Notes under the pieces: model-generated
Databases searched by the model: none
What the model was told of the DNA's origin: nothing
The model's input: the letters and a program-made list of their open reading frames with translations, nothing else
Position numbers and translations under genes: made by a program
NCBI GenBank assembly: GCA_021414115.1
Contig: JAIOPD010000006.1
Location: forward strand, 1 to 39,795
DNA: 39,795 nucleotides
Origin: Planctomycetia bacterium
Lineage (GTDB): Bacteria; Planctomycetota; Planctomycetia; Pirellulales; UBA1268
Reading direction: 5' to 3'
Shown: positions 2,008 through 39,434 of the stretch, in pieces
How the letters are laid out: every line of letters starts with the position of its first letter
How positions within the stretch are numbered: the stretch's first letter is position 1

Positions 2008-2145
2008 GCTCGGGGCTGCCCGTACCCCGTTGCCGGACGTTCGCTCCGCCCATCCTGGGCTTCACTCACTCGATGCTGGCTGCGCTCCGGCATCCTGCCT
2101 GCGCTGGCCAGCAACGCCGGCAATGGGGCACGGGCAGCCCCGAGC
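2008..2145. repeat. Palindromic dispersed element R, copy 1
   Basis: The element is bounded by 29-base inverted arms at 2008-2036 and 2117-2145, which match at 27 of 29 positions. The left arm contains GGGCTGCCCGT and the right arm ACGGGCAGCCC. The 80-base core reads GGACGTTCGCTCC, then CTCACTCGATGCTGGC, then GGCCAGCAACGCCGG. Core and arms recur at 22059-22191, 32526-32655 and in the interrupted copy at 32428-33143. No coding capacity is seen. It looks like a REP- or MITE-type palindrome; its mobility and function are unknown. Confidence 0.8.
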
Positions 2146-17230: not shown

Positions 17231-17277
17231 TCCGGAAAGCTCGGCGGGGCGCTCAGCGAGCCATGGCATCAGGCTCG

Positions 17278-17384
17278 GGAAGCCCGGGGCGCGAGCGACG
17301 GGTATCCGGGTGGCATGCCGTGAGGGAGCCGCGGAACGAGACGGGGTGGAGGGCGTATTCCCCGCGCTGGCGCTTGGGGCTTCC
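17278..17384. repeat. Inverted-end dispersed element S, copy 1
   Basis: The element starts with GGAAGCCCGGGGCGCGAGCG and ends with CGCTGGCGCTTGGGGCTTCC, which are imperfect reverse complements over about 28 bases. The interior (TGCCGTGAGGGAGCCGCGGAACGAG) also recurs before 39222. It lies between the RNase Z-like gene and hemW. It is open in the hemW frame, which gives a false N-terminal extension to hemW. Confidence 0.75.
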
Positions 17385-17469
17385 TGATGTGGGCAGCATG
17401 CCACCCCGGGCCAAGCAATCCGTCATACTTGAGATGTTCTGTCGCACCGATCATCGAGATGCATCCATC

Positions 17470-22058: not shown

Positions 22059-22191
22059 GGGGCTGCCCGTGCCCTCTCGTCCGGACGTTCGCTGCGGGCA
22101 TCCATGCCCTCCGCTCACTCGGAGGTGCCTGCGCTTTCGCCCTCCGGGCTGCGCTGGCCACCTACGCCGGCTCGAGGGCACGGGCAGACCC
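22059..22191. repeat. Palindromic dispersed element R, copy 2
   Basis: The arms are GGGGCTGCCCGTGCCCTC at 22059-22076 and GAGGGCACGGGCAGACCC at 22174-22191, pairing at 17 of 18 positions. The core has GGACGTTCGCTGCGGGCATCC and GCTCACTCGG, then GCGCTGGCCA, matching copy 1 in order. The tail CTCGCTGAGTTC after the right arm is shared with copy 3. Confidence 0.8.
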
Positions 22192-22210: not shown

Positions 22211-22326
22211 GGAAGCCCCAAGCGCGAGCGCGGGGTATACGGATGGCCTCGAAGCCGGCATGTGCGGAGCCCCGTGACGTTGCCTCGAGGCAACGCGGTT
22301 ACCCGTCGCTCGCGCTCCGGGCTTCC
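22211..22326. repeat. Inverted-end dispersed element S, copy 2
   Basis: The left end GGAAGCCCCAAGCGCGAGCG and the right end CGCTCGCGCTCCGGGCTTCC are imperfect reverse complements. The interior differs from copy 1 and holds its own palindrome TTGCCTCGAGGCAA at 22280-22293. It lies just after R copy 2. Confidence 0.75.
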
Positions 22327-30832: not shown

Positions 30833-32401
30833 ATGAGTGATCTGCATCACGAGTGCGGCCTGGCCGCGATCTACCACCTGGTGAGTGACGAGCCGAGTCC
30901 CCTCTGTCCGGCGCAGGGGCCCGAGGAGGTGTCGCGGCTCGTGCCCCGGATGCTTCTCGACATCCAAAACCGCGGTCAGCTCTCCGCGGGGATGACGGTC
31001 TGGAATCCCGATCGCAGCCAGCTCCTCGCCACCTACAAGGAAGTGGGGAGCGTCAGCGAGGTATTTCGGATGAGCCACCGGGGCAAGTACGAGAGCCTGA
31101 TGGAGCAGCACACCGGGCGGGCCGCCATCGGCCACGTTCGGTATGCCACCTGCGGCGCCGAGGACCGCGGCTACGCCCAGCCGCTCGAACGGCCACATAT
31201 CCAGAAGCGGAAGTGGTTTGCCTTCGGCTTTAACGGCCAACTGGCCAACTACCCTGAACTGCGGGCCGAGATTCTGGCCACGGACGACAGCCATCTCGCC
31301 CGGGACAACGACACCGAAGTGATCATGCACGCGATCGGCCAGGAACTGTCGGGCGACGCTGATCCCGATCCGATCGAGTTGCTCGCCGCGATCTCGGCCC
31401 GCTTCGACGGCGCCTGGAACATCGCCCTGCTCGACGCCTGCGGCAGGCTCATCGTGGCCCGCGACCCGAGAGGCATCCGGCCAATGGAGTATGCGCGGCT
31501 CGGACCGCTCGTCGCGGCGGCGAGCGAGAGCGTGGCCCTGCTCAACCTCGGCTTCCCGGCCGAGTCGATCCGCTCCCTCGAACCCGGCACGGCGCTGATC
31601 GTCGATGGCACGAACGTGCGGGTGGAGCGGTTCGCCGAAACGCCTCGCAAGGCCCACTGCTTCTTCGAGTGGATCTACTTCGCGAATGTCGCCAGCACGA
31701 TGGACGAGCGGAGCGTCTACCTCTCGCGAAAGCGACTCGGCGAGGAACTCGCGCGGCTCGAGACGGTGCCGATCGACTCCGACACCGTCGTCGTCCCCGT
31801 GCCCGACACGAGTAAGGCGGCCGCCGATTCGATGGCCTACCGCCTCTCGATTCCCTGCGTCGAGGGGCTGATTCGCAACCGCTACACCGGCCGCACCTTC
31901 ATCGACGCCGCCGCGAGCCGCCGCCAGAAGGCCGAGACGAAATACACGCCCCTCCGCGAGGTGCTCGAGGGCCGGCGGGTGATTCTCGTCGAGGATTCGA
32001 TCGTCCGCAGCACGACGATGAAGGTGCTCGTCGGCCGGATGCGGTCGCTGGGACTCGCCCGGGAGATCCACGTCCGCGTGGCCTGTCCGCCGATCGTGGC
32101 ACCGTGTTTCTACGGCATCGACATGTCGACGATCGACGAACTGTTCGCCCCCGAGTTCCTTCCCGATGGGAAACTCACCGAGGCCGCTCAGAGAGAGATG
32201 GCGGCCCGGCTGGGGGCCGATTCCCTCCGCTATCTGCCGATCGAGGCGGTGGCCCGGTCGATCGGCTTCGATGAGGCCGACCTCTGCCAGGCCTGTCTCA
32301 CGGGGAACTACCCGACACCGGCCGGTGAGCGTCTCTACAAGGTCGCCCTCGCGCAGACCTCCCGCGGCGGCGTGGGCCGGACCTACGAAACCGCCCGGTA
32401 G
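30833..32401 (+). CDS. purF: Amidophosphoribosyltransferase (iron-sulfur type)
   Basis: The 522-residue protein makes 5-phosphoribosylamine from PRPP and glutamine, the first step of purine synthesis. The N-terminal [16 protein letters not shown] puts the catalytic Cys at residue 8, so a seven-residue propeptide must be removed, as in the Bacillus enzyme. The C-terminal half has [17 protein letters not shown], the PRPP motif. Cys residues in [22 protein letters not shown] and the C-terminal [12 protein letters not shown] match the [4Fe-4S] cluster positions of B. subtilis PurF. It is therefore the oxygen-sensitive cluster-bearing subtype. ATG 30833 is chosen because it starts just before the propeptide; upstream frame is not related. 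Confidence 0.95.
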
Positions 32402-32459
32402 GTTGCATGCGACGTCGGTGAATCACCGTTCGGGCCCGCCGTCGCCGACGTTCGCTGTG

Positions 32460-32470
32460 GGCATCCTGCC
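32460..32470. repeat. Target-site duplication, left copy
   Basis: GGCATCCTGCC is repeated exactly at 33045-33055 and directly borders the inverted ends of the IS remnant. Eleven bases is in the 9-13 bp range reported for IS4-family insertions. Confidence 0.75.
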
Positions 32471-32525
32471 AATCCTGTTCGGCACGGCAGATGCAGGACG
32501 GGGCGAACCGCGTCTGGCCTGGCTC

Positions 32526-32655
32526 GGGGCTCCCCACGCCCTCTCGCCGGACGTTCGTCTCGGCCCTCCAGGCCTCGACTCGCTGCATGTCCGCTGCGCT
32601 TCGCCATCCTGGCTGCGCTTGCTCCCACAGCCCGCTCGAGGGCATGGGCAGCCCC
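32526..32655. repeat. Palindromic dispersed element R, copy 3
   Basis: Arms GGGGCTCCCCACGCCCTC (32526-32543) and GAGGGCATGGGCAGCCCC (32638-32655) pair at 16 of 18 positions. The core has CCGGACGTTCGTCTCGG and GCGCTTCGCCATCCTGGCTGCGC. The copy lies inside the IS remnant, where the C-terminal part of the transposase gene would be expected. Confidence 0.75.
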
Positions 32656-32706
32656 TCGCTGAGTTCCTACCTCGACTGCGCAGCATCGAACCCCGCGTGC
32701 CGATAA

Positions 32707-32946
32707 GGCCGTGGCTTCGCCGACGCGGGCTACCTTCGTGATGTGATGAAGGCATCGAATCGCCGGGCTGACCAGCGATATCAGGATCGGTGCGCAGTGC
32801 TGATCCATGAACAGCCGGCGATTGCCGGCCCTGTTGCGCTCGGTGCCCACCTTGCGGAGCCGCCACAGCAGCGGACGAATCCTCCGCAGGCACTTCAGTC
32901 CCTGCACATCCTTGTCACGGATCTCGCGCTTCCTGCTTGTGGCCAT
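32707..32946 (-). pseudogene. Transposase N-terminal fragment (IS4-like)
   Basis: About 80 residues from ATG 32946 read KDVQGLKCLRRIRPLLWRLRKVGTERNRAGNRRLFMDQHCAPILISLVSPAIRCL in part. The order of blocks (LK.LR.I.PLL..LR.VG..R..AGNR.LFMDQ, then a hydrophobic stretch and SP....L) is that of the N-terminus of IS4-type transposases common in planctomycetes. Similarity stops near 32707, and the catalytic DDE core is absent. The frame remains open beyond this into repeat sequence, which is not transposase. Confidence 0.7.
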
Positions 32947-33044
32947 GCCGGGCACGATACCGCCGCGAGAGCGAGGGCGCAACTCGCCGCAGCCTGCCCG
33001 GACCATCGGTCCTCTGAAGCGCAAACCCCGTGCCGAACAGGATT

Positions 33045-33055
33045 GGCATCCTGCC
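33045..33055. repeat. Target-site duplication, right copy
   Basis: GGCATCCTGCC is identical to 32460-32470. It directly follows the right inverted end of the IS remnant and leads into the right part of R copy 4. Confidence 0.75.
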
Positions 33056-33168
33056 CTCCGCTCACTCGATGCTGGCCACGCTTCGGCATCCATGCCTGTG
33101 CCGGCCAGCAACGCCGGCTCCCGGCGTGTGGGCGGGCCCGAACCTCCCGAACTCGTGGGAGGCCAGGT

Positions 33169-33849
33169 TCACGTCGGCGGAATGACCCGCTCGCAGCCCG
33201 CGGGCCGGTCGTTGCGGTCGAGGGCGGCCCTCCAGACCGGGGCGCCGGCGATCCGGGTGCGGCGCTCGAAGTGGGTGCGGTAGTCGAGGTCGTGTTCCGG
33301 CGTCGGGGCCTCTTCGTCCCGCGGATCGGCGAACAGGCCGGTGGCCTTCGCGAAGGCCATCGACTCGAGGAAGTATTCCTCGACGTCGGTCCAGACGTGC
33401 AGGATGGCACCCGGGGGAAGCACGCGGCCGGCATGCTGCAGGAAGAGTTCCGAGAGCACCCGCCGCTTGCGGTGGCGGGCCTTCCACCACGGATCGGGAA
33501 AGTAGACGTGCATCCCGCCGAGGCAGGCATCGGGAAGCATGCTGCGGACGAGAAATGTCGCGTCGCCGTGGATGATGCGGGCATTGGTGCGGCCGGCTGC
33601 CGCGAGCCTCCCCGCGCAGAGGCGTGCATAGCCCCCGGCGATCTCGGCTCCGAGAAAGTTGCGGTCGGCCGCGTGTGCCGAGGCCGTGGCCAGAAACAAC
33701 CCCTTGCCACTGCCCACCTCGAGTTCGACGGGCGCCGCGGCCGGGAAGACGGAGCCGGGGGCAAAGGGGACGGGCAGCGAATCGAGCGCGAGCAGGTGCG
33801 CCGACAGATCGAGCGACGGGTCAGGCTTTCTCGGTGGACGACGAGGCAT
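33169..33849 (-). CDS. trmB: tRNA (guanine-N7)-methyltransferase
   Basis: The 226-residue protein methylates G46 in the tRNA variable loop. ELEVGSGKGLFLATAS at about 43-58 is the SAM-binding motif I, and FLGAEIAGGYARLCAGRL follows. VYFPDPWWKARHRKRRVL at about 115-132 is the TrmB signature, and LHVWTDVEEYFLESM is another conserved block. The C-terminus, TRYRTHFERRTRIAG-type, ends with TRIAGAPVWRAAL. Length is normal. It follows the FabZ-like gene by 16 bp on the minus strand. Confidence 0.95.
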   Translation of the reverse strand: MPRRPPRKPDPSLDLSAHLLALDSLPVPFAPGSVFPAAAPVELEVGSGKGLFLATASAHAADRNFLGAEIAGGYARLCAGRLAAAGRTNARIIHGDATFLVRSMLPDACLGGMHVYFPDPWWKARHRKRRVLSELFLQHAGRVLPPGAILHVWTDVEEYFLESMAFAKATGLFADPRDEEAPTPEHDLDYRTHFERRTRIAGAPVWRAALDRNDRPAGCERVIPPT

Positions 33850-39174: not shown

Positions 39175-39252
39175 CGGGCCGCCCGGCGTGAGGGATTCGC
39201 GGAGCGAGCCGAGGTGGAGAACGTATACCCCGCGCTCGCGCTTGGGGCTTCC
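39175..39252. repeat. Right half of an S element
   Basis: The sequence GCGTGAGGGATTCGCGGAGCG through TATACCCCGCGCTCGCGCTTGGGGCTTCC is similar to the interior and right end of S copy 1 (17318-17384). No left end is recognisable upstream: rpmG is too close, so the copy is truncated or degenerate there. Confidence 0.6.
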
Positions 39253-39301
39253 TGACGAAGAGGCGTGACCGAACCGCGGGGCGTGGCGCATCCGTTGCCG
39301 G

Positions 39302-39345
39302 GGAAGCCCGGAGCGCGAGCGACGGGTAAACGTGTGGCGAGGCGT
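39302..39345. repeat. Left half of an S element
   Basis: GGAAGCCCGGAGCGCGAGCG at 39302-39321, followed by ACGGGTAAACG, is the left end of the S family. No matching right end appears before the next gene. Together with the half at 39175-39252 it points outwards, so two partial copies lie back to back. Confidence 0.6.
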
Positions 39346-39434
39346 GCCGGCGACGGGGAGCCGGTTGAGGTTGAGGATCGGTCGGAATTGAAAGCGGGAC
39401 GGCCGACCACTCCCACTCCACATCGTCCGGCACG

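Follow-up and report, generated by a model that had tools for sequence, protein, structure and literature searches.

Descriptions of large palindromic repeats usually treat them as DNA elements, and selection on their structure has mostly been argued from folding energy. Palindromic repeats of 100-200 bp, such as ERIC, YPAL, NEMIS/Correia and RPE, have been reviewed (PMC2229807). CGTC-tagged REPs have been reported from several phyla, including Planctomycetes (PMC3733652), and the conserved mismatches within REP sequences matter for TnpAREP (PMC8266576). IS elements that target REPs are also known and include ISRm22, which is of the IS4 family (PMC1525189). The element described here, which we call R, is a large dispersed palindromic repeat of this known sort; it stands out by unusually clear evidence for which of its strands folds and by its reciprocal relation with an IS element.

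R is a dispersed palindromic repeat of ~135 bp, found in the window (the whole 39,795-nucleotide stretch of Planctomycetia bacterium DNA that was analysed). All four sites picked out at first reading belong to this one repeat family. Copy 1 sits 3' of a class II fructose-bisphosphate aldolase gene (stop at 1951) and is matched on the minus strand by a covariance model at 2008-2142 (147 bits); copy 2 is matched on the same strand with 122.9 bits. The pairing originally reported for the copy 1 arms, 27 of 29 bases, was recovered exactly. The copies and associated features in the window are as follows.

2008..2145, plus strand: R copy 1, intact, with the constrained fold on the minus strand
2008..2036, plus strand: left arm of copy 1, 27/29 paired with 2117-2145
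2117..2145, plus strand: right arm of copy 1, pairing with 2008-2036
2039..2069, minus strand: hairpin A of copy 1, with covarying stems and tandem GA/GA and GNA/GNA internal loops
2052-2056, minus strand: apical loop AGGAT of hairpin A, a conserved loop
2074..2113, minus strand: hairpin B of copy 1, with the same motif as hairpin A
2092-2096, minus strand: apical loop AGGAT of hairpin B, a conserved loop
2359..2385, plus strand: solo right-arm fragment of R, 89% to the copy 1 arm (direct repeat family)
22059..22191, plus strand: R copy 2, between convergent genes
32400..32404, plus strand: AGGTT, left-hand one of the two direct repeats that bound the nested insertion as a whole
32428..32469, plus strand: left part of R copy 4, ending in the duplicated 9-bp target GCATCCTGC (32461-32469)
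32470..33045, minus strand: internally deleted IS4-family remnant with inverted repeats CAATCCTGTTCGGCACGG, inserted in the hairpin A loop of copy 4
32526..32655, plus strand: R copy 3, carried by the IS remnant, with its minus strand in the same direction as the transposase gene
33055..33143, plus strand: right part of R copy 4, after the second GCATCCTGC (33046-33054)
33165..33169, plus strand: AGGTT, right-hand one of these two direct repeats around the nested insertion

Copies 1 to 3 stand as first placed. Copy 4 is real, but it is a single R cut in two by the IS remnant, which lies between the 9-bp direct repeats GCATCCTGC. The remnant (32470-33045) retains an N-terminal piece of the transposase together with R copy 3, so that copies 3 and 4 are nested rather than neighbouring, with copy 3 inside the element that splits copy 4. 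This nesting, which was missed at first reading, explains why these two copies appeared odd. The arms of copy 4, GTTCGGGCCCGCC and GGCGGGCCCGAAC, had been described as unlike those of copies 1 to 3 yet still pairing; relative to copy 1, each arm has changed at three positions, and every one of these changes is matched in the opposite arm. A close relative (G017) lacks the entire nested block, 32405-33164, and at its empty site has one AGGTT in place of the two in the window. Another palindromic repeat, also dispersed and with arms resembling GGAAGCCCSRAGCGCGAGCG...CGCTCGCGCTYSGGGCTTCC, is present in the window at 17277-17387, 22211-22326 and 39175-39376, and also lies beside many R copies elsewhere in the window genome (G000).

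A search of the window genome found at least 40 full-length copies with strong scores out of 188 candidate sites, and R is present in 22 of 22 genomes, representing every species, of the host genus. With a covariance model built from 36 diverse copies, R was detected in 21 of the 146 genomes that were sampled across the order; all 21 belong to one family, of mostly lake-dwelling Planctomycetota, and span 10 genera, and R was not found in the other families among the 146. At least 150 copies are present in one genome of another genus (G090). Matches listed for the exact core pattern in the GTDB collection were MAGs titled as Planctomycetota and a few titled only 'bacterium'. The same pattern had zero matches in IMG/VR, on which ground a phage origin was rejected, and R was rejected as a known RNA family because Rfam contains no match to it at the gathering threshold, MIR820 and tRNA-Sec alone appearing at chance level. 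Copies of R lie at contig ends (C36, C58, C40 and C24 of G000; C357 of G021; C72 of G137), which indicates that the repeat breaks assemblies, and the copy numbers in draft genomes are probably underestimates.

Compared with shuffled sequences, the copy 1 strand folds with z = -9.1 as RNA and -7.9 as DNA. On the minus strand the fold consists of an outer stem of ~25 bp and the two hairpins A and B. In an alignment of 98 copies the RNAalifold consensus was weak because the arms are out of register, and a hand-built minus-strand structure was used instead; the strongest covarying column pairs in this alignment are nested Watson-Crick pairs when judged against a tree-based null, the E-values being coarse since that null comprised 20 simulations only. 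For the set of 36 diverse copies, the proportion of cells that pair is 94.7%, both sides have changed at 23 pairs, and covariation stands at 0.314, compared with 0.041-0.059 for slid controls. The corresponding values for 53 copies from the other genera of the family, a set which was aligned to the model and so leans towards it, are 96.6% of cells pairing, changes on both sides at 34 of 43 pairs, and a covariation of 0.403 against 0.025-0.058 for slid controls. The original prediction, which had been made to turn on covariation, proposed selection for a stem (or gene conversion) rather than simple duplication; instead of lacking, covariation is overwhelming, extends beyond the arms to both internal hairpins, and holds across 10 genera. 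Recent duplication of one copy is refuted by the divergence across genera. The internal loops, of the sheared G·A type, are near-invariant, reading as tandem TC/TC and TNC/TNC on the plus strand, equivalent to GA/GA and GNA/GNA on the minus strand, as are the apical loops (ATCCT on the plus strand, AGGAT on the minus strand), which lie between covarying stems.

A G·U wobble is tolerated on one strand, while the same change on the other strand is an A·C mismatch. Read on the plus strand, imperfect pairs comprise 99 A·C against 26 G·T, that is, G·U on the minus strand, a count that excludes one column pair regarded as unpaired. Counts on the minus strand give 57 G·U against 11 A·C for the diverse set, 105 against 23 for the genus set and 76 against 8 for the family set. 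The same bias is seen for recent single changes between nearest neighbours (G·U 93, A·C 14; p ~2e-15), including those which started from A-T pairs only (24 and 4), and purine and pyrimidine transition rates are similar at unpaired sites. Helix ends next to GGGG/CCCC, again on the minus strand, are GA/GA in 146 cases, Watson-Crick in 44 and TC/TC in one. Taken together, the wobble asymmetry and the GA/GA ends indicate that the minus strand, as RNA or ssDNA, is the selected form. The bias against A·C is still present among copies at least 95% identical (10 to 1); this could mean that individual copies are functional, and we counted it against a mobile-repeat reading.

These data bear directly on an explanation that dispenses with selection, in which template switching or gene conversion keeps the arms alike, recombination keeps the copies, and covariation is mutational in origin. 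Recombination of this kind does happen, as is evident from solo arms and collapsed palindromes. It is also in keeping with the situation beside the aldolase gene, on the 3' side of which R recurs in several species and in one orientation: most copies there are more similar to copies elsewhere in the same genome, or in a sister genome, than to one another, for which reason we rejected the site as one orthologous R. Arm copying cannot, however, explain a preference for G·U over A·C in pairs that were based on G-C as well as on A-T, the 146 to 1 excess of GA/GA over TC/TC ends, or the conservation of loops between covarying stems. We consider an origin without selection highly improbable, and between the two alternatives left side by side in the original prediction, stem selection and gene conversion, the former is favoured.

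Our preferred reading, which we hold to be probable, is that R is a family-specific, non-autonomous, REP/ERIC-like mobile palindrome, whose persistence or spread depends on the folding of one of its strands in single-stranded form. On this reading the strand that folds, as RNA or ssDNA, is the minus strand of the window; a protein serving mobilisation or maintenance would recognise the folded RNA or ssDNA; and R would owe part of its dispersal to hitchhiking within the IS and within a larger element, T. In its terminal inverted repeats, which pair over ~25 bp, its size within the 100-200 bp range and its intergenic location, R has traits of the MITE/ERIC type. When 30 copy sites of the window genome were compared with the orthologous places in its close relative G017, most of those places were without R. 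No precise empty site for R alone was found, most empty sites involving composites or deletions, and in other close pairs the sites with no full R frequently retain an arm or the termini of R and look like the products of deletion between short repeats. Left-arm fragments are repeated directly upstream of a full copy at some loci (L005, L006, L012, L019 and L053), which look as though the left 40 bp of R had been duplicated.

A classic MITE with target duplication was rejected since no duplication was detected: across 253 copies, flanking direct repeats were not clearly above those in shuffled pairings. The IS4-family element, a possible parent, has inverted repeats that differ from those of R and carries R internally; no other parental transposon sharing the ends of R was found. 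Y1 transposase is absent from 10 of the 22 genomes searched, nine of them R-bearing and including G000, and none of four Y1 genes examined has an adjacent R. We rejected RAYT/TnpAREP as the mobiliser on account of its absence from G000 and eight other R-bearing genomes, and a retro-mechanism via a resident reverse transcriptase because the enzyme is present in only 5 of 22 genomes. Element T is a larger repeat that surrounds about half of the R copies in G000; its end starts CTAGAGCGCATCCGACTTTGGTGGA, and a left flank of this type accompanies 24 copies in the classified set. The inverted ends of T, CTAGAGCGCATCCGACTTTGGTGGA and TCCACCAAAGTCGGATGCGCTCTAG, often start at a stop codon (L003, L014, L022, L026, L054 and other G000 loci), and its interiors differ between G000 and G017. 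The CTAG start of T recalls IS630-type MITEs. A different arrangement is seen in G090 (L394-L400), in which R forms head-to-head inverted pairs ~30-270 bp apart that resemble REPINs, several with the short inverted repeat AGCCTCC...GGAGGCT in between.

The IS in the window, bounded by the inverted repeats CAATCCTGTTCGGCACGG, corresponds to a full element with a transposase of 413 amino acids that belongs to the IS4 family (NF033592, E = 5e-57; PF01609). In several genomes, copies of this IS sit at the hairpin A loop of an R. Five distinct copies at this loop have duplications of 9-10 bp (GCATCCTGC, GCAGGATGC, CCATCCTGG or CCATCCCTGG), and 25 of 44 distinct IS ends adjoin an ATCC or GGA loop. 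The relation also runs in the other direction: in 16 of 16 cases of IS-carried R in the classified set, a full R lies behind the transposase gene with its constrained strand in the transposase direction. An IS that targets the R loop and carries its own R has a simple route to keep landing sites available.

The genomic setting of R raises a further alternative. With gene neighbours taken from a simple codon-usage gene caller, 95 copies have both neighbours called; 53 lie between convergent genes, 40 between tandem genes and 2 between divergent genes, and the convergent share departs from 25% with p = 2e-10. Overlap with a predicted gene is seen for only 5 of 122 copies. Such a distribution would be expected if R were a cis-acting 3'-end element, a bidirectional terminator or a stabiliser of mRNA 3' ends, kept because it lies downstream of genes. 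The great stability of the fold fits this explanation, as do the single orientation in which R follows the transposase gene directly in every IS copy seen and its recurrence at the aldolase gene. In tandem contexts, however, the constrained strand is sense in 16 cases and antisense in 24 (p = 0.27), which is not what a sense-strand 3'-UTR role would give; this absence of an orientation preference indicates that the fold is not simply a feature of sense 3'-UTRs. Promoter avoidance would, moreover, also be produced by counter-selection of insertions. We regard a 3'-end role as unlikely. A short palindrome, CACAGGTTTTCAACCTGTG, and its variants are frequent beside R (L031, L061, L064, L065 and others, in G005, G014 and G016).

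The apical loops suggest another possible role, namely CsrA binding by R as a trans-acting RNA or as an element of transcripts, in which case its many copies would titrate or recruit the protein. Both minus-strand hairpins present CAGGAUG or CAUGGAUG loops ~40 nt apart, the sequence repeated in CsrB, whose hairpin loops display CAGGA(U/A/C)G (PMC7652899). GGA, as in CAGGATG, is present in 162 of 168 loops of hairpin B and 153 of 165 of hairpin A, a retention of 93-96% between closing stems that covary. CsrA genes were also found in every genome of the genus that was searched, usually four, but they are equally present in members of the order without R. Some hairpin A loops, moreover, lack GGA (CACGAAG, CACGATG), no conserved promoter-like block was seen upstream of the fold, and the orientation of R towards genes is unbiased. 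A CsrA-binding function, suggested by loop sequence, would thus be an improbable explanation. Genomes of the genus (G000-G018) as a rule encode four CsrA paralogues, and those of the order four to nine. Similarly improbable is the possibility that R is a transcribed, folded RNA parasite or regulator with two CsrA-type GGA hairpins, in which an RNA-binding protein, the repeat and the IS have co-evolved. One R, carried by the IS, would then form the 3' terminus of the transposase mRNA, and the hairpin loop of other R copies would be the landing site of the IS; if true, hundreds of copies of such an element would be spread across a whole bacterial family.

Returning to R as a mobile palindrome that must fold on one strand, the hundreds of copies in 10 genera provide a direct test of structural selection, in that pairs covary and the wobble asymmetry names the folding strand; once that strand is named, a protein that reads the fold can be looked for. 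The closest parallels are the REP, BIME and REPIN sequences of Enterobacteria and Pseudomonas. Like these, R is high in copy number, intergenic, downstream of genes and palindromic, and it shares with them strand-specific features, inverted pairs (in G090) and its use as a target by specific IS elements. REP-type sequences are, however, 20-40 bp long, whereas R is ~135 bp with two internal hairpins; REP and REPIN have a GTAG-type tag and a RAYT, whereas R has no GTAG but a conserved 5' flank (CAGCG/CCGTG/CCGCG) and no associated RAYT. The CGTC-tagged REPs resemble R in being palindromic, downstream of genes and without a dedicated transposase but, at 20-40 bp, are shorter. In size, intergenic dispersal and the lack of need for a protein encoded inside, R is more like ERIC, YPAL, NEMIS/Correia and RPE, which also form a large stem-loop by pairing of their two ends; judged by published descriptions, it is set apart from the ERIC type by the lack of any detected TA or other target duplication, by a multi-hairpin fold with G·A loops and by its strand asymmetry. 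The CsrA-sequestering RNAs CsrB and RsmZ share with R the CAGGAUG apical loops on short stems, but R differs from them as a dispersed repeat in hundreds of copies with a long outer stem and only two loops. Finally, the REP-targeting ISRm22 likewise has an IS4-family transposase and inserts at a single defined position within a dispersed palindrome. Unlike elements of that type, the Planctomycetota IS also has its own target element behind the transposase, in all of the carried copies that were classed, and the unusual part of this IS is that it carries its target as well as hitting it.
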